Assembly (NCBI RefSeq): GCF_038066715.1
Contig: NZ_JBBUKT010000010.1
Coordinates: forward strand, 1 to 64,000
Source of the DNA: Luteolibacter sp. Y139
GTDB lineage: Bacteria > Verrucomicrobiota > Verrucomicrobiia > Verrucomicrobiales > Akkermansiaceae
Length of the DNA: 64,000 nt
Direction: 5' to 3'
In this document: one piece after another, positions 1 to 6,646 of the stretch
Layout: each line of letters starts with the position of its first letter
How positions within the stretch are numbered: position 1 is the stretch's first letter
The notes under the pieces: generated by a model
Told to the model about the DNA's origin: nothing
The model's database searches: none
The model's input: only the letters and a program-made list of their open reading frames with translations
Translations under genes and position numbers: made by a program

Positions 1-190
1 TGCCCCGACAAGGACAAGGAGAAGAAGAAGGAAGAACTCGTGATGTCCGGCGGCAAGGACAAGGACAAGGATGACTGCCCCGACAAGGACAAGGACAAGG
101 AGAAGAAGAAGGAAGAACTCGTGATGTCCGGCGGCAAGGACAAGGACAAGGACGACTGCCCTGACAAGGACAAGGAGAAGAAGGAAGAGA
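1..190 (+). repeat. Tandem coding repeat, about 75-81 bp units
   Basis: Two nearly perfect copies start at 1 and 76 and a truncated third starts at 157. Copy two has one extra Lys-Asp pair (6 bp). Repeat edges coincide with the Cys-Pro codons, so each unit adds exactly one cysteine to the encoded peptide. The array probably continues to the left of the window. Confidence 0.85.
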
Positions 191-207
191 AGCTCGCGAT
201 TCTCTGA
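1..207 (+). CDS. Bufferin/MNIO-type precursor peptide, C-terminal end (5' partial)
   Basis: An open frame enters at the left edge and ends in TGA at 205-207, giving 68 visible residues. They form a repeat of about 25-27 residues: Cys-Pro-Asp, a run of alternating Lys/Asp/Glu, the block EELVMSGG, then KDKDKDD. Cysteines lie at codons 1, 26 and 53, each in the context C-P-D-K. The DNA repeat units (1-75, 76-156, then a shortened unit) are almost identical, which points to recent expansion. The gene lies immediately upstream of DUF692 and DUF2063 genes, the arrangement of bufA-bufB-bufC operons, where BufA is an exported peptide whose cysteines are modified by the MNIO enzyme and which binds metal. 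The classical EGKCG core motif is not present in the visible part. The signal peptide expected for a BufA lies outside the window, so the assignment is inferred from neighbours and Cys repeats. Confidence 0.7.
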   Translation, partial: CPDKDKEKKKEELVMSGGKDKDKDDCPDKDKDKEKKKEELVMSGGKDKDKDDCPDKDKEKKEEKLAIL

Positions 208-226
208 TTTTCCGTTCCACGGATCG

Positions 227-258
227 CCCCGCGGCCATTTCGGTGCCGCGGGGTTTTT
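227..258 (+). terminator. Intrinsic terminator between precursor and MNIO genes
   Basis: A 9-bp perfect stem (227-235 pairing with 245-253) with a 9-nt loop is followed by five T residues. It lies 20 bp after the precursor stop and before the DUF692 start. Terminating here would make the precursor transcript more abundant than the maturation-enzyme transcript, with read-through or a weak promoter at 260-350 supplying the enzymes. Confidence 0.8.
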
Positions 259-351
259 CCGTCTTTAAGCAAAGAAGCCAGAGGCCCGGGTGGACGCTCT
301 CCTTTACTCCGATCTGGTTTCTGGTCTATTGTATCTGGTTTCTCGATTCCT

Positions 352-1215
352 ATGAGCGGCTCGCGATTCACGGCAGGCGTGGAACTGGCTACGGGCATCG
401 GCCTGCGGGTGCCGCACTACAACCACATCCTGGCGGAGAAGCCGGCGGTCGGGTGGTTCGAGATCATTTCGGAGAACTACATGGTGGAAGGCGGGCGGGC
501 GCTCGCGGTGCTCGATCAGATCCTAGATCAATACCGTGTGGTCCAGCATGGCGTGGGGATGTATCCGGGGGATGCAGGCGGCGTGAAATTCGACCATCTG
601 CGCCGGCTCAAGCGGCTGGTGCGGCGGACGAAGACGCCGTGGCTTTCCGATCACCTGTGCTGGGGCAGCGTGGATGGCAGCATGAGCCATGACCTGCTGC
701 CAATTCCCTTCACTTTCGAAGCGGCTCGGAAAACGGCGGAGAATCTGCGGATCATCCAGGACTTCCTGGAGGTGCCGCTGGCGATGGAGAACGTGAGCAG
801 CTACGGCGAGTTCAACGGCAACGAGATGACCGAGTGGGAGTTCCTGGCTGAGGTCACGGAGCTGGCGGACGTGGGGATTCTGTTAGACGTGAACAACATC
901 TACGTTTCCTCGGTGAACAACGGGTTCGATGCGATGGAGTATGTGAATTTCGTGCCGCCGGAGCGGGTGGCGCAGATCCACATCGCGGGGCATTCGCGCT
1001 ATGAGCGGTTCATCGTGGACACGCATGACCATCCGGTGGTCGATCCGGTGTGGAAGCTCTATGAGCGGGCGATCGAGCGCTGCGGGCCGGTGGCGACTTT
1101 GTTAGAGTGGGACGGGCGCATTCCATCGTTCGATGAAGTGTGGACGGAGGCGAAGAAGTCGGAGGCGTGGCGCGAGTCGGCCTTGGCGAAGAAGGAAGAG
1201 CATGAAGCCGCTTGA
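352..1215 (+). CDS. bufB: DUF692 multinuclear non-heme iron oxygenase (MNIO), BufB-like
   Basis: The 287-residue protein matches the DUF692/MNIO family, which uses a multi-iron centre in a TIM barrel to modify cysteines or nearby residues of ribosomal peptides; bufferin enzymes form thiooxazoles. Visible family motifs are ISENY (E41, N42), HGV (H66), LSDHLCW (D100, H101), MENVSSY (E146, N147), LLDVNN (D179, N181), QIHIAGH (H210, H214), DTHDHPV (D223, H225, H227) and LEWD (E252), covering the expected iron ligands. Length is typical. The ATG at 352 is chosen because the family N terminus (GIGLR) follows shortly. No good ribosome site is visible. It overlaps the DUF2063 gene by 14 bp, implying translational coupling, and follows a Cys-repeat peptide gene. 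Confidence 0.93.
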   Translation: MSGSRFTAGVELATGIGLRVPHYNHILAEKPAVGWFEIISENYMVEGGRALAVLDQILDQYRVVQHGVGMYPGDAGGVKFDHLRRLKRLVRRTKTPWLSDHLCWGSVDGSMSHDLLPIPFTFEAARKTAENLRIIQDFLEVPLAMENVSSYGEFNGNEMTEWEFLAEVTELADVGILLDVNNIYVSSVNNGFDAMEYVNFVPPERVAQIHIAGHSRYERFIVDTHDHPVVDPVWKLYERAIERCGPVATLLEWDGRIPSFDEVWTEAKKSEAWRESALAKKEEHEAA

Positions 1216-2083
1216 AGAGATCCAGCGGGAGTTCTTCGCCGCGCTGCACATGCCGCTGCGGGGGACGAGCCGGCGGAGCACGGAGCTACCGCCATGCAGC
1301 GAGGGGCATTTGCCGGAGTTCCTGGCGAAGGCGGACGAGCTGATGAAGGCGGGCGAGAACCTGTCCTCGGCGGAGCGGCTGGAGCTTTATCACCGGCAGT
1401 ACTGGTTCCGCGTGCTGGATTCGGTGGCGGATGATTTTCCGGTGCTGCGGAGAATGGCGGGGGAGGAGACTTTCTGGAGTTTGTTAGAGGGGTATTTGCA
1501 GGCGTTTCCTTCGGAGAGCTACACGCTGCGGCATTTGGGGCGGGCGGTGGCGCGGTTCGTTTCCGGATGGGAGGGGATCGATGCGATGCGTCGTCGCTGG
1601 TTCACCGCGGTGGCGGAGCTGGAGTATGCGGCGATGGAGACGTTCGAGGCGGCGGAGCGCGAGCCATTGCCGCCGGAGCGGATCGCGAGCGAGGTGCTGG
1701 AGCTGCAGCCGCATGTGCGATTGCTTGAGATGCCGGTGCCGGCGGATCTTTGTTATGCGTGGGAGAGCTTCGAGCCGTGTGAGGAGGAGGTGACGCGGGT
1801 GGCGGTGTGGCGGGGGCCGAAGGGCGCTCACATGCAACGGCTGGATGCGGTGGAGTTTGTTTTGTTAGGGCGGTTGAAAGAGGGGCGTTCGCTGGAAGAG
1901 CTGTTCGCGGATCCGGTGGAGCCGGAGCCGACGCCGGAGGAGGTGCAAGGGTGGTTTGCCGACTGGCAATCGCGCGGCTGGATCACGGCGCGGGGGAGCG
2001 AGGTGATCGAGCTTGTTCCGCAGGATGATGATTGGAGCGGTGTGGACAAGATGGGCTCGCAGGCGCGGGCGATGGAGGATTAG
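1202..2083 (+). CDS. bufC: DUF2063 (HvfC/BufC-type) MNIO partner protein
   Basis: The 293-residue product has the DUF2063 N-terminal helical domain (residues about 5-100, with the family-like stretches ERLELYHRQYWFR and DDFPVLRRM) and a variable C-terminal half. In bufferin and TglHI-like systems this protein pairs with the DUF692 enzyme as a recognition or partner subunit for the precursor. The ATG at 1202 lies inside the end of the MNIO gene (overlap 1202-1215) and was preferred to an in-frame start at 1133 that would add an Arg-rich shadow of the upstream gene. The last bases overlap the convergent VOC gene by 4 bp. Partnership with the neighbouring enzyme is inferred from family and overlap. 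Confidence 0.88.
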   Translation: MKPLEEIQREFFAALHMPLRGTSRRSTELPPCSEGHLPEFLAKADELMKAGENLSSAERLELYHRQYWFRVLDSVADDFPVLRRMAGEETFWSLLEGYLQAFPSESYTLRHLGRAVARFVSGWEGIDAMRRRWFTAVAELEYAAMETFEAAEREPLPPERIASEVLELQPHVRLLEMPVPADLCYAWESFEPCEEEVTRVAVWRGPKGAHMQRLDAVEFVLLGRLKEGRSLEELFADPVEPEPTPEEVQGWFADWQSRGWITARGSEVIELVPQDDDWSGVDKMGSQARAMED

Positions 2084-2466
2084 GCCTCGTAGAGTTCCAG
2101 CGGCAGGCCGTCGGGGTCGGCGAAGAAGGTGAAGCGCTTGCCGGTTAGCTCGTCGATTCTCACGGGCTCTACCTTCACGCCTTTCGATTCTAACAGAGTC
2201 ACGGCTTCGGCGACGTCTGGCGCGGTGAAGGCGAGGTGGCGGAGGCCGCAGGCTTCCGGGTAGCTCGGTCGCTTCGGAGGATCGGGGAAGGAGAAGAGCT
2301 CGATTTGCGTGCCATCGGCGATTTCGAGGTCCAGCTTCCAGGAGTCGCGGGCTTCGCGATAGGTTTCGGCGATGATGCGGAGGCCCAGGATTTCGGTGTA
2401 GAAGGCCTTCGATCGCGGATAGTCCGAGGCGATGATGGCGGCGTGGTGGAGGCGGAGGAGGTTCAT
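2080..2466 (-). CDS. VOC/glyoxalase I-like metalloprotein, YaeR type
   Basis: A 128-residue single-domain VOC protein resembling E. coli YaeR and Streptococcus SMU1112c. It has the N-terminal HHAAIIASDYPRSKAFYTEILGL signature (shown in part: HHAAI, DYPRSKAFY), the middle segment IELFSFPDPP, and the C-terminal metal-ligand region FFADPDGLPLELYE. Metal ligands expected from the family are the first His, a central His (LRHLAF) and the final Glu. The substrate is unknown; the family is related to lactoylglutathione lyase but that activity is not proven. The start at 2466 gives the conserved family N terminus. It lies 28 bp downstream of the membrane protein gene on the same strand, so they may be co-transcribed. 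Confidence 0.88.
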   Translation of the reverse strand: MNLLRLHHAAIIASDYPRSKAFYTEILGLRIIAETYREARDSWKLDLEIADGTQIELFSFPDPPKRPSYPEACGLRHLAFTAPDVAEAVTLLESKGVKVEPVRIDELTGKRFTFFADPDGLPLELYEA

Positions 2467-2494
2467 GGCTTCAGGTGTTCGCGGTCTCTCAGGG

Positions 2495-4513
2495 TTATGC
2501 ATCCAGCAGTTCAAGCAGGTCCTTCCTCTCCTGCTGGTCCACCTCATACTCGTAGCGGTTTGCCGCTGGAATGCGGGGTTCGATCTTCGTGAGGACGTTC
2601 AACTTGGTCCAATGCTTCTCCCGGGCGTGATGGAAAGGGACAAGCAGGGCCATCAAGAGAAGCCCCGTGGCATACGCGGGAACGAGGCTGCGTCCCCAAG
2701 TGAGAAAGCGCACGGCATGATGGCGTGGGCAGGTGGGAACTCCCACCGCGAGATTGATGATGATCACGGCAAGCAGTGCGATGACAAGCGTTCCTCCAAG
2801 GATATGCGCTCCTTCGCTCTGGCTCCATCCGGTAGCGGTGGCGATCGTCATCATGGTGGCACTCGCGACAACCGACAGGACCCGTGGACGCGGCCAACCC
2901 AAACAACCGAGGCGGAGGCCAAGCCGTCGCGATGCGAATTGGGCGGGGAGAAGAAGGATCGCTCCGGCAAGGGCTCCGAATCTGAGAAAGGTGGCGAGGC
3001 CAGCCTCCTGCGTGGCCGATGCGGTGGTGAGGGGCAGCAGCCACTCCAGAAGCAGATGAATCACGATGGGGAGGATGATGCCGACTCCCACGATCCATCG
3101 GTGATCGGAGGGACGCAATACTTGGACCAGAGCCTCGGAAAGGGCCTGTGCTTGCTTGCCTCGGGTGAAGCGGCCTCCAGCAGCCAGCAGCAGTACCATG
3201 AGGACGACTACGCCGACCATGGCCGAGGCGATGCGCCGCCACATCTCGCGTGCGGCCATTTCGCCCGGGATGAGATCGGCCAAGCTGATCGGCGGCGGAG
3301 ATTCCACAGCGGCTCCGGCAAGAAGGATGCCTCCACCTGCATCCTCCGCGAGCCCTCGCCATTGCTTCACCAGTTTGTCCGTGCGCTGACTTTGGGCTTC
3401 CTTGCGTTTCCCGATGGCTGCTTCAAGGCTCGAATATCGGGCCTCCTGCGAGGCAAGGCCGAGCATGCGGGCTGCCCGTGTGAAAGCGGGCAGGGAGCTG
3501 AATGGGAAAAGGATGGAACCGTCATTTCCGATCGAGCGTCGGGCGAAGATTTCCCATGCATCCGTGAGTGCCACAAAGCCCTCGCGATCACCGGCGATGG
3601 CAAGTTCCTCGGCGCGAGCGGCAATGGCTTGGGAAAGGTGCCCGAAGCTTGCTCCTGTTCTTGGCACCACCATGTGGAGGTAGGACGCGGTGAGCTTCCG
3701 TCCGAGCACATCGTCTCCGGGAGGAAGAATTTTCAGGCGCTGGAGCAGAAGCTCGTGTTCATACGACTTCATGCTTGGAAGGCGGGTGGCTTCCTGGAAA
3801 AGCCGGATGGCTTCCGCTTGGCCCGCGGTATCGAAGATATGATACCTCGGGGCTTTCGGATTCAGCTTGAGGACGTGGGAGGGGACAGGGAGTTCGTTGA
3901 TATTTCCCCGCGCCTTTGCTCCTGCCGCGAGGTAGCGGAACCAGGCATTCTGCGGATCCAGGCGGTCTGCGGTTTTGAGAAGATCGGGCGGAATGTCTGG
4001 CCCGGAGGCGACTGTCCGGGCGTAGTCTGCAAAGAGCGCGGGGTTTCCGGGGTCGCTGTCCCACAGGCTTTTTATCACATCGGCTTTGCTGGGTTGCGAG
4101 GGATCGCCGAATAGCAGCAAGCGCTCAGGCGCCGTTAGAGGGCCAAAAAGTCCGGGAACCTTTTGATCGATATCGGGGCCGAAGGGCAGGCCCGGCAAAC
4201 CGATTGCAGCCGGATCGGTCATCGCAAAAAGATCATAGGAGGCGAGCCGGAGTCGCACGTAGTCCCGTGCCAGCGGAATGGCGGCAAGAACCACGGCAAG
4301 TGCTGCGGCGACATACAAGATGACCTTGGCCCGCGATTTTGGCCGGGCCGTCTCCAGATTCGCGGCGGCTTGCTCAAGCGAATCTCCCCGGTGTTCTCCG
4401 GATTCCTGCGAGAGGACCGACCGCAGCTCCTGGGCCGCCATTAGCTGAAGCTCCGCATTGTCCGCCAGGGGGCGGACGGCAGCTTCGATAAAGCGCTCGG
4501 CGGGGTCGGGCAT
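2495..4513 (-). CDS. Membrane protein of unknown function, tandem paralogue 1
   Basis: A 672-residue protein I cannot assign to a named family. It has a short conserved cytoplasmic N terminus (DPAERFIEAAVRPLADNAEL), a first membrane helix near residues 63-83, a long soluble alpha-helical region of about 330 residues with TPR-like patches (for example LFADYART, TADRLDPQNAWFRYL), then about six hydrophobic helices from roughly residue 425 to 645, and an acidic tail ending LLELLDA. It has the same architecture and N-terminal residues as the upstream neighbour, so the pair arose by duplication. Spacing to the upstream gene is 78 bp, consistent with one transcript. A role in envelope sensing is possible but not supported by any motif I recognise. 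Confidence 0.75.
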   Translation of the reverse strand: MPDPAERFIEAAVRPLADNAELQLMAAQELRSVLSQESGEHRGDSLEQAAANLETARPKSRAKVILYVAAALAVVLAAIPLARDYVRLRLASYDLFAMTDPAAIGLPGLPFGPDIDQKVPGLFGPLTAPERLLLFGDPSQPSKADVIKSLWDSDPGNPALFADYARTVASGPDIPPDLLKTADRLDPQNAWFRYLAAGAKARGNINELPVPSHVLKLNPKAPRYHIFDTAGQAEAIRLFQEATRLPSMKSYEHELLLQRLKILPPGDDVLGRKLTASYLHMVVPRTGASFGHLSQAIAARAEELAIAGDREGFVALTDAWEIFARRSIGNDGSILFPFSSLPAFTRAARMLGLASQEARYSSLEAAIGKRKEAQSQRTDKLVKQWRGLAEDAGGGILLAGAAVESPPPISLADLIPGEMAAREMWRRIASAMVGVVVLMVLLLAAGGRFTRGKQAQALSEALVQVLRPSDHRWIVGVGIILPIVIHLLLEWLLPLTTASATQEAGLATFLRFGALAGAILLLPAQFASRRLGLRLGCLGWPRPRVLSVVASATMMTIATATGWSQSEGAHILGGTLVIALLAVIIINLAVGVPTCPRHHAVRFLTWGRSLVPAYATGLLLMALLVPFHHAREKHWTKLNVLTKIEPRIPAANRYEYEVDQQERKDLLELLDA

Positions 4514-4556: not shown

Positions 4557-4595
4557 TCAGGGTTTTACGTCGAGGAGTTCGAGCAGGCCTTTCAT
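4557..4595 (-). pseudogene. Vestigial duplicated C-terminal tail (12 codons)
   Basis: Immediately after the stop of the upstream paralogue, an ATG overlapping that stop (ATGA) opens a 12-codon frame encoding MKGLLELLDVKP. This matches the C-terminal tail DLLELLDA of the downstream paralogue. The sequence is best read as a relic of the tandem duplication or of a frameshifted tail. Translation as a micropeptide cannot be excluded. Confidence 0.45.
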
Positions 4596-6646
4596 TGTTT
4601 CAAGATTTCCAGCAGTTCGCGCCGCATTTGTTCGGCGGCCTGATACTCACGGAGAGAGGTCGCGGGGATGCCGGGTTCCCATCGGCTCACTGTATCCATT
4701 TTTACCCAATGGAGTTCCCGGGCTTGGAAGGTCCACGATGCCAATGCCGCCAGCAGGATCGCAACGAGCTGGGCAGGGAGTGCCGCCCGTCCGCAGACGA
4801 GCCAGAACAAGACCTTTCGCCTTGCCTCGACGGCGCAGGTCAGCAATGCCACGAGGAAGCCGAGTGCCATCGCTGCTGCGACCCAGAAGAAGATCTGGAA
4901 CACGGTCGAGGATAGCGCCGATGCACGGAGGAATGCGGTCACAAGAATGGTGATCGCCGGGATAGCCGCGGCTCCCACCAGAATCCACCGCTCGCGAACG
5001 GTATTGTGATTCCAGCCGACGCAATGCAAACGCATGTCGAGCCTGCGTCCTGCCAGCAGCATCGGGAAGGTGAGCATCACAGCCGCCGTTATCAGGAATC
5101 GTAGAAGGGTGCCTTCGAGACATCCGCTTGCCCGAATGCCAAATTCTTGCAGCCCCAGCGGAGTCGCCTGGTCGAGCAACAGGAGCACGGCGAAGGGCAG
5201 AAGCACGCCGCCGCCGAGGATCCAAGCATAGTCGACCGGTTGTAGCACGTGGCTCAGCGAATGGGAGAGCCGCCGGGCCTGATTGCCGCGGAGAAAGCGC
5301 GTGACTGCCAGCAGGAACGCGGCCACGGCAAAGACCGCAATCATCCCTGCACAGGCGAAGCGCCGGATCAAGGAGTGGTCCGCCAGGCGACCGGGCTCGA
5401 GTTCGGAGTCGTTGAAGGAGGGGGCATTGGTCCAAGAGAGATCGGCAAATTGCAGCCCGCCGCGCTCGCGGATTCGGTCGAGGTTCTGCTCGTTGGGCTT
5501 CGTGTTCCGGGCCTTGATCGCCTCATGCCACGCTTCGTGGCGCGCTGCCAAAGCCGGAAGGTCCAAGTCCCGGGCTGCCTTGGAAATGGCGTGAGACGCG
5601 ATGGTCACTCCATAGCTCGCGTTGGCGATCTGGCGAGGCGTGGATTCCGAGTGTTGGATTGCGCGAATGACGCAGGTCTCCCATGAGGAGGCCAACTGTT
5701 CCAAACCATGGCGATCCCCGGTGGAAGCAAGCTCCCACGAGCGCGCGGCGACGAGCTTGGCGAGTTCATTGGGCCGAGAGCTGATCCAGCTGCCGGGTCG
5801 ATAGATGAGAAGATAGTCGTAGGCCAATTTCCGGTCCCACCAGTTGTCACCCGGTGGCAAGACTGCGAGGCGTTGCAGTAGCATCCGGTCTTCGTAGGTC
5901 TCGTAGCGTGGCATCGCCGCTGCCTGTTGCAGGAGATCGAGTGCTTCCGCGGCCTTCGGGGCGTCGATGATGAGATAGGGGGGAAACGAGCCGCCTTTTT
6001 TCCTGATATGGTAGGGAACCTCGTTGAGCTTGGTGACCTTGCGAGCCGCGACTCCTGCCGCCAAATGCTGGTACCAGCCATTGCCGGGATCGATCCGGTC
6101 TGCGCTTGTGAGGAAATTCGCGGGCAGAGCCTTGGAGTCCTCGTAGGAAGCGCGGGCATAGTCAGCGAACAAGGCCGGATCTGCCGGGGTGCTGTCTCGC
6201 AGGGCCTGAAAGCGATCGAGCCACGGTCTTTTCGAGAGGTCGCCGAACAACAAGAGACTCTGCTGGGGAGAGCGTTCTCCGAAGGTTGCCGGGAGTCGGG
6301 CCACAGGGTGCCACTCCAAGTTTAGTGCCGGCAAAAGGGGGACTGGGTCTTCACCGCGAAAAATCAGAGCGTGCAGCGCCAAGCGTATTTTCAGGCAGTC
6401 GCGCACGGTCGGAAGAAGCGCTGCAATGGCCAAGGCGACGATCAGGAAGAGGCATGACCTGAGTATCCAAGGCGGGATTCGCGGCTTGGTGAGATTGGCA
6501 GTCGCCTCCTCGAAGGAAATCGCCTCGGGGGCGGGGTCGGCAGGGAGACCGGCGCGAAGCTCCTGGGCCGCCATCATCTGAAGCTCCGCATTGTCCGCCA
6601 GGGGGCGGACGGCGGCTTCGATGAATCGCTCGGCGGGGTCGGTCAC
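4592..6646 (-). CDS. Membrane protein of unknown function, tandem paralogue 2
   Basis: A 684-residue paralogue of the gene downstream. The first ~30 residues are almost identical (DPAERFIEAAVRPLADNAELQ) while the rest is strongly diverged. The order of parts is the same: conserved N-terminal segment, one membrane helix near 62-80, a long soluble helical region with the phrase TSADRIDPGNGWYQHLAAG equivalent to the neighbour's TADRLDPQNAWFRYLAAG (parts shown), then several membrane helices from about 440 to 660. No enzymatic motif is recognised. It is divergent from dnaE, with about 100 bp between the two starts that must hold both promoters. Confidence 0.75.
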   Translation of the reverse strand: MTDPAERFIEAAVRPLADNAELQMMAAQELRAGLPADPAPEAISFEEATANLTKPRIPPWILRSCLFLIVALAIAALLPTVRDCLKIRLALHALIFRGEDPVPLLPALNLEWHPVARLPATFGERSPQQSLLLFGDLSKRPWLDRFQALRDSTPADPALFADYARASYEDSKALPANFLTSADRIDPGNGWYQHLAAGVAARKVTKLNEVPYHIRKKGGSFPPYLIIDAPKAAEALDLLQQAAAMPRYETYEDRMLLQRLAVLPPGDNWWDRKLAYDYLLIYRPGSWISSRPNELAKLVAARSWELASTGDRHGLEQLASSWETCVIRAIQHSESTPRQIANASYGVTIASHAISKAARDLDLPALAARHEAWHEAIKARNTKPNEQNLDRIRERGGLQFADLSWTNAPSFNDSELEPGRLADHSLIRRFACAGMIAVFAVAAFLLAVTRFLRGNQARRLSHSLSHVLQPVDYAWILGGGVLLPFAVLLLLDQATPLGLQEFGIRASGCLEGTLLRFLITAAVMLTFPMLLAGRRLDMRLHCVGWNHNTVRERWILVGAAAIPAITILVTAFLRASALSSTVFQIFFWVAAAMALGFLVALLTCAVEARRKVLFWLVCGRAALPAQLVAILLAALASWTFQARELHWVKMDTVSRWEPGIPATSLREYQAAEQMRRELLEILKQ

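Follow-up and report, generated by a model that had tools for sequence, protein, structure and literature searches.

The three genes at the start of the analysed DNA probably direct the synthesis of a bufferin- or captophorin-like RiPP that is exported and binds metal, in which an MNIO enzyme would oxidise the cysteines of a repetitive, highly charged peptide before export, and in which the peptide core derives from a Cys-Lys type; the modification, the export and the metal are predictions from sequence. The DNA in question, referred to here as the window, comprises 64,000 nucleotides of Luteolibacter sp. Y139 (NZ_JBBUKT010000010.1, positions 1 to 64,000, forward strand).

Position 1 of the window is the first base of contig C10 of this genome (G000) and lies inside the repeat gene, which is cut by the contig end. 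The 3′ part of this precursor peptide gene (1..207, plus strand, open at the window edge) reads CPDKDKEKKKEELVMSGGKDKDKDDCPDKDKDKEKKKEELVMSGGKDKDKDDCPDKDKEKKEEKLAIL from base 1 to the stop at 207. It encodes three cysteines in CPDK units within a Lys-, Asp- and Glu-rich chain with the tail -LAIL, and Tandem Repeats Finder assigns it an 81-bp period with 2.3 copies and 94% matches. The preliminary description, made from the window alone, had called for recovery of the upstream sequence, and within the genome that contains the window the repeat of the precursor gene was also located at the end of contig C19 (G000:C19:1-408, minus strand, outside the window). Read outward, this 5′ part encodes MKASNALVAAALAGVFSAGLASA, an N terminus that by its sequence pattern resembles a Sec-type signal peptide, and then four Cys units before the contig ends, the first being DDCPGK and the next three DDCPDK. 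In the relative G039 a single contig carries the sequences that flank both C19 and C10, in matching order and with the repeat between them; therefore, the two contig ends are most likely one gene that was broken in assembly. Taken together, the two parts hold at least seven Cys units, a lower bound obtained by adding up the two contig ends.

The precursor gene is followed by the MNIO gene (DUF692; 352..1215, plus strand), which encodes a 287-residue protein of the bufferin-maturase type as judged by Pfam and NCBIfam models, alignment and structure prediction. The third gene (1202..2083, plus strand) encodes a 293-residue DUF2063 partner of the PME type; comparison with relatives places its start at 1202 rather than at the longest-ORF start of 1133, and it overlaps the end of the MNIO gene by 14 bases. 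This is the bufferin-type gene order, with the precursor directly before the MNIO and DUF2063 genes. The three-gene cassette itself contains neither a DoxX gene nor a sigma factor gene, and a glyoxalase-like gene runs in the opposite direction at its end (2080-2547, minus strand).

The initial observation that the repeat gene adjoins intact MNIO and DUF2063 genes holds: both reading frames are open and complete, with Pfam scores of 330.4 bits (PF05114) and 53 bits (PF09836), respectively. The MNIO additionally passes the NCBIfam model NF050167 (MNIO_BufB) with 325.1 bits versus a cut-off of 310. Residues His66, His101, Glu146, Asp179, Asn182, His210, His214, Asp223, His225, Glu252 and Asp254 align with the motifs of solved MNIOs and are invariant in 33/33 aligned enzymes; we take these eleven residues to be the metal site. 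The AlphaFold model of the protein (mean pLDDT 78.0, pTM 0.83) has its best structure match in the DUF692 structure 3bww (TMq 0.77), with TglH and MbnB entries next, and on sequence and model the enzyme looks intact. PMC13097082 describes the Asp that follows the last Glu as the catalytic base of MNIOs, and by analogy of motif Asp254 is presumed to serve as the base here.

The repeat unit of the precursor follows the pattern K-x-K-D-D-C-P-(D/G)-K. The DDCPDK core proposed earlier is present in six of the seven units, three on each contig part, but not in the first, which is DDCPGK; similarly, the proposed single cysteine per unit applies to all seven units here, but not to relatives L035 and L030, which carry Cys-less units at the C-terminal end. 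The EGKCG bufferin core, noted before as missing from the peptide, is absent from both precursor parts. Searches of the precursor against Pfam and NCBIfam models, with a limit of E 1, gave nothing above any cut-off, and at the same threshold the peptides P0001 and P0002 matched neither a Pfam family, DUF2282 included, nor the BufA2 model NF050166. As for the literature, the strings DDCPDK and DDCPGK appear in no open-access paper text searched (supplements being outside the scope), KDDCP appears in four of these texts, all unrelated by title, and none of them contains Luteolibacter and MNIO together. The core motif was thus rightly called undescribed with respect to curated families and the open-access texts searched.

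Several features of the peptide extend to its relatives. N termini similar to that of the C19 part occur in 104 of them, and at the nine all-Cys-Pro genome loci charged residues make up a fraction of 0.58–0.71 of the chain after residue 24. The C-terminal dipeptide is Ile-Leu in 101 of the 107 precursors collected and Ile-Ile in one, the remaining five being the window's cut half, P0020, P0069, P0073 and P0086; among the Cys-Lys relatives, Ile-Leu does not rank with the twelve most frequent dipeptides at the C terminus.

To follow the cassette through the family we used a sample of 195 genomes, of which 12 had a match to the precursor and 28 a match to the MNIO. An MNIO of at least 86% identity is present in 11/195, and the same eleven genomes carry a homologue of the peptide immediately before the orthologous enzyme, in the order precursor-MNIO-DUF2063. 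The twelfth precursor match (G014) is a different Cys peptide in a genome with no MNIO match. The window's genus is represented by 18 sampled genomes; precursor and MNIO occur together in seven of them and are both missing from the other 11. All cysteines precede Pro in nine genomes, and in each of these nine loci the gene for the peptide comes before that for the MNIO; the cores of G133 and G127 are different. Among the best 80 of at least 564 relatives, screened by script with named contigs, the sole all-Cys-Pro peptide is that of Haloferula sp. BvORR071, which is identical to the precursor of G071. The script that called precursors applied simple rules and found none at 10/107 loci, and at some related loci the peptide is farther off (about 1.46 kb upstream in L062-L064, beyond the partner gene in L061). 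Shared ancestry inflates these counts. A chance repeat beside DUF692 is rejected on the co-inheritance of peptide and enzyme.

The best reading of the sequences is that the Cys-Pro core is a descendant of the Cys-Lys (BufA2-like) core, which refines the preliminary description by connecting the motif to a known one through sequenced intermediates. MNIOs that are 64–71% identical to that of the window come mostly from Acidobacteria and other Verrucomicrobiota, and are located behind Cys-Lys peptides that usually have four to six cysteines, such as CKGKNDCKGQGGCKSSDNGCKGKNSCKGKGGCATDG. The peptides of the window genome's second cassette and of L091 score 33.1 and 39.3 bits, respectively, against the BufA2 model, the cut-off being 60. 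One Akkermansiaceae branch (21 rows with support 100/98 in the first tree, 20 rows with 100/99 in the larger tree) holds peptides rich in Lys, Asp and Glu with the cores KDGCKGK, KDKCSGK, KDGCPGK, KDDCPGK and KDDCPDK, and P0032 combines DDCPGK and DGCPGK in one peptide. Within this branch the core moves from KDGCKGK through KDGCPGK towards KDDCPGK and KDDCPDK.

The precursors themselves were collected from protein searches with 38 and at least 91 matches (the latter among the 8000 candidates sharing most words) and from the loci, yielding 108 distinct sequences, some of them fragments, or 107 once a Cys-less one was dropped. In this set 68 precursors are all Cys-Pro, 14 are mixed and 25 are without Pro; the all-Pro class is defined by Pro, and counting Pro within it is circular. 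Lys occupies position -3 in 366/370 units and position +3 in 362/370, in a collection in which rows found by similarity favour conserved motifs. A single origin of Cys-Pro is unsupported: the all-Pro label needs two changes on the first tree and the any-Pro label three on the larger tree. Gains and reversals are indistinguishable here, and both trees have a midpoint root.

This graded series has a bearing on what kind of protein the repeats might otherwise encode. Alternating Lys and Asp with D-D-C-P-D resembles thrombospondin type 3 repeats, and a calcium-binding or structural protein built of such Asp-rich repeats could have acquired an MNIO neighbour by chance. We regard this as very improbable, as P0001 and P0002 lack any Pfam match up to E 1, the peptide is co-inherited with the MNIO, and its motif grades into those of BufA2-like peptides.

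The motif also changes together with a residue of the enzyme. According to PMC13097082 (2026), the catalytic Asp is followed by Phe in Lys-Cys (EGKCG) enzymes and by Asp in Cys-Lys enzymes, where a model places that second Asp against the substrate Lys that follows Cys. The window's MNIO has Gly at this position (255, codon at 1114-1116, next to Asp254) in place of Asp. We compared 97 deduplicated loci with an MNIO identity of at least 60% and a precursor found: any Cys-Pro was present in 0/75 loci with Asp255 and in 13/22 of the others, and in 8/75 Asp255 loci Cys is followed once or twice by a member of the set P, S, N, D, E, T and Q. The pairing is not strict, with L038 and L060 combining Gly255 with Cys-Lys and Cys-Ser, L126, L127 and L160 combining Ala255 with mostly Cys-Lys, and L108 (Gln) and L115 (Glu) having mostly Lys or Ala after Cys. 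The outer members of the Akkermansiaceae branch, L047 and L048, have Ala255 with Cys-Lys, Cys-Asp, Cys-Ser, Cys-Asn and Cys-Glu; because they have Ala without Cys-Pro, loss of the Asp seems to have preceded the gain of Pro in this branch. In a separate lineage (L150 and L151), Ala255 goes with peptides containing KDGCPAK and KEGCPGK.

Charged Cys peptides can bind metal unmodified, and the peptide could in principle be a metallothionein-like thiol chelator in which Cys-Pro blocks the enzyme, the MNIO then acting on another substrate. The behaviour of FonBC, which accepted Pro at none of the sites tested (PMC13097082), speaks for such a block, but the motif and the enzyme residue beside the catalytic base vary together, the genes for peptide and enzyme are neighbours and are inherited together, and the peptide gene lies before the MNIO gene in 9/9 all-Cys-Pro loci, which makes the unmodified chelator an improbable alternative. 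Modification of the peptide by its neighbouring MNIO is the reading we prefer.

In the mechanism that we propose for this modification, the Sec-type signal peptide of the precursor would probably double as the leader, as has been suggested for oxazolin (PMC13419390). In the cytoplasm, the MNIO and its DUF2063 partner would oxidise the Cys of each unit, with 5-thiooxazole as the most likely product, after which Sec would export the modified chain; its high charge may keep several soft-metal sites, probably for copper, soluble and so permit metal buffering. In the course of evolution the enzyme would first have lost the Asp by which it recognises Lys at the position following Cys, and this position would later have been taken by Pro.

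The presence of Pro has consequences for the chemistry. Two routes to 5-thiooxazole are published in PMC13097082, one via an azetidinone, whose formation involves deprotonation of the N-H that follows Cys, and a direct one, requiring the N-terminal amide alone; the 2026 paper leaves the mechanism undecided, and the route to oxazolone-thioamide that it gives likewise uses the N-H after Cys. As Pro offers no N-H after Cys, 5-thiooxazole on Cys-Pro would, by our own deduction from the scheme text, exclude the azetidinone route for that enzyme. We lean towards the view that this is a natural MNIO family with Pro after every target Cys, in which either 5-thiooxazole arises while the amide that follows Cys is not deprotonated and specificity has been rewired beside the catalytic base (Asp to Ala or Gly), apparently in two lineages, or a new Cys modification is made. 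A rival reading, in which the enzyme oxidises Cys to something other than 5-thiooxazole or oxazolone-thioamide, would accord with the dependence of one 5-thiooxazole route and the oxazolone-thioamide route on an N-H that Pro lacks, as well as with the 18 columns near the active site that, by the criterion set in our analysis, differ between this clade and the Cys-Lys enzymes. Still, we consider it unlikely, given that the direct route is in principle compatible with Pro, that all characterised MNIO-PME1 products carry 5-thiooxazole (PMC13097082), and that Cys-Pro is found beside other Cys motifs in mixed peptides (14/107). A native Cys-Pro substrate, if confirmed, would separate the two published routes, and the locus belongs to a natural series, running over Cys-Lys, Cys-Ser and mixed peptides to Cys-Pro, of changes in how such an enzyme reads its substrate.

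Compared with known systems, the peptide is best read from its sequence as a divergent bufferin/captophorin, and it would add charged, multi-site bufferin-like peptides to the Akkermansiaceae, with a motif missed by the Pfam and NCBIfam models searched. It has the same kind of signal peptide and several cysteines as the BufA2/Cys-Lys bufferins (NF050166; Buf_6/12Cys in PMC12452194; the Cys-Lys group in PMC13097082), and shares with this group the C-x-G-K spacing, Lys at +3, the order precursor-MNIO-DUF2063 and an MNIO that passes the bufferin-maturase model and sits in the same MNIO tree. Unlike the BufA2 group, it has Pro rather than Lys after Cys, one Cys per Lys-, Asp- and Glu-rich unit, a C-terminal Ile-Leu, an MNIO with Gly rather than Asp at 255, and no match of the peptide to the BufA2 model. 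The EGKCG repeat peptides, or captophorins (oxazolin HvfA, fontiphorin and gonophorin; PMC13097082, PMC13419390), likewise have one Cys per short unit, a signal peptide, and an MNIO with a PME1 partner; in contrast, they have Lys before and Gly after Cys, where the present peptide has Asp and Pro, and their enzymes are described with Phe where the window's MNIO has Gly.

BufA1/DUF2282, as described for Caulobacter vibrioides Buf1 (PMC12452194), is also an exported Cys peptide encoded in the order bufABC, but has four conserved cysteines in a folded domain, whereas no DUF2282 match was found here. Methanobactins (MbnA-MbnBC) share the MNIO fold and, in principle, Cys oxidation; however, the MbnB structures match our MNIO model at 15–18% identity, and the proposed methanobactin route to oxazolone-thioamide uses the N-H after Cys that is missing from Cys-Pro. 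The adjamnio-3 precursors (PMC12452194) share the signal peptide and a DUF2063-type partner and are predicted to be unstructured, a likeness drawn from their description. The same paper mentions additional precursors with a signal peptide, in the hundreds and with 1 to 18 cysteines each; in its main text the string 'verrucomicrob' is absent, and its account of these precursors does not describe the present motif. From soil bacteria, PMC8692599 describes precursors with six cysteines that accompany DUF692 and DUF2063 genes.

To assess selection on the repeats we used 38 units, each with an 11-codon core, from the nine all-Cys-Pro genomes. Four codons are used for Pro, whose presence in 38/38 units is partly due to the choice of genomes. 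The core has a mean dN of 0.073 versus a mean dS of 0.780 (555/633 between-genome unit pairs with a defined estimate, the pairs being non-independent); with dN far below dS, the core is therefore under purifying selection within the all-Cys-Pro group. For the signal peptide, dN is 0.213 and dS 0.481 over 35 pairs, which indicates conservation, if not a strong one at the codon level. The near-perfect repeats had also been taken to indicate recent change in copy number. Copy number does vary, from 3 to 7 Cys among the eight complete genes of the nine genomes, but its recency is weakly backed by the third-position identity of units (0.768 within a genome versus 0.709 between genomes), even if certain units match each other perfectly along 33 bases. 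Strong concerted evolution of the units, considered on the same comparison, likewise gained little from it.

Two elements may bear on expression of the cassette. A promoter-like element with TGGAAT is present in 12/18 upstream regions, these 12 being the ones aligned, and is absent in L032, L034, L047, L048, L056 and L057; it may resemble an ECF sigma promoter. The extended form GGAATAA-N15-RTCKYA matches the 7.1 Mb genome exactly at a single site, which lies upstream of the precursor gene, and its reversed control has no match; as the exact form points to no other gene in the genome, a regulon defined by this element was rejected. The second element, recognised by folding, is a GC-rich hairpin between the precursor and MNIO genes (227..258, plus strand; arms 227-235 and 245-253, followed by TTTTT). 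A terminator scan with a loop limit of 8 reported no plus-strand site at 227..258, where the loop is 9. Across the 22 loci folded, a GC-rich hairpin with a T run lies between the precursor and MNIO genes in 9/9 all-Cys-Pro loci, and we infer that it acts as a partial terminator, which would yield more precursor than enzyme.

Most precursors of the window's peptide family share a C-terminal end: Ile-Leu closes 101 of the 107 sequences (window 1–207, peptides P0002–P0091 and loci L029–L048), and it is absent from the twelve commonest C-terminal ends of the Cys-Lys relatives, the BufA2-like peptides with Lys after Cys. In the precursors of loci L035 and L030, Cys has been lost from C-terminal repeat units while the charged K/D/E sequence is kept. 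Upstream of the window's own precursor gene, the 5′ part of which most likely lies on another contig (G000:C19), we located a promoter-like element, GGAATAA-N15-ATCTTA (L005:476–503, minus strand). Its exact pattern has one match in the genome, and TGGAAT occurs in 12 of 18 upstream regions.

The same genome carries a second, more ordinary cassette (L008:1882–6028, contig G000:C4), in which genes for a sigma factor and DoxX are accompanied by those for a BufA2-like peptide, an MNIO and DUF2063. The peptide scores 33.1 bits, whereas the cut-off is 60. The MNIO is 67–69% identical to the window's enzyme and has an Asp after the catalytic Asp.

The MNIOs of L049 and L050 (46–47% identity to the window's) are preceded by ORFs that encode 258 and 225 residues, including 10 and 9 Cys, respectively. 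The products of these ORFs have Tat-like twin-arginine N termini (SRRDFIKTFSVGA and SRRRFLKTIGGSAVAG) and may be Tat-exported MNIO substrates. The BufA2-like peptides upstream of the L126 and L160 MNIOs have a lipobox-like Cys within the signal peptide and are perhaps lipoproteins.

Further downstream in the window, two adjoining large ORFs on the minus strand (2495–4513, 672 aa; 4592–6646, 684 aa) are likely tandem paralogues, judging by their nearly identical N terminus, DPAERFIEAAVRPLADNAELQ.
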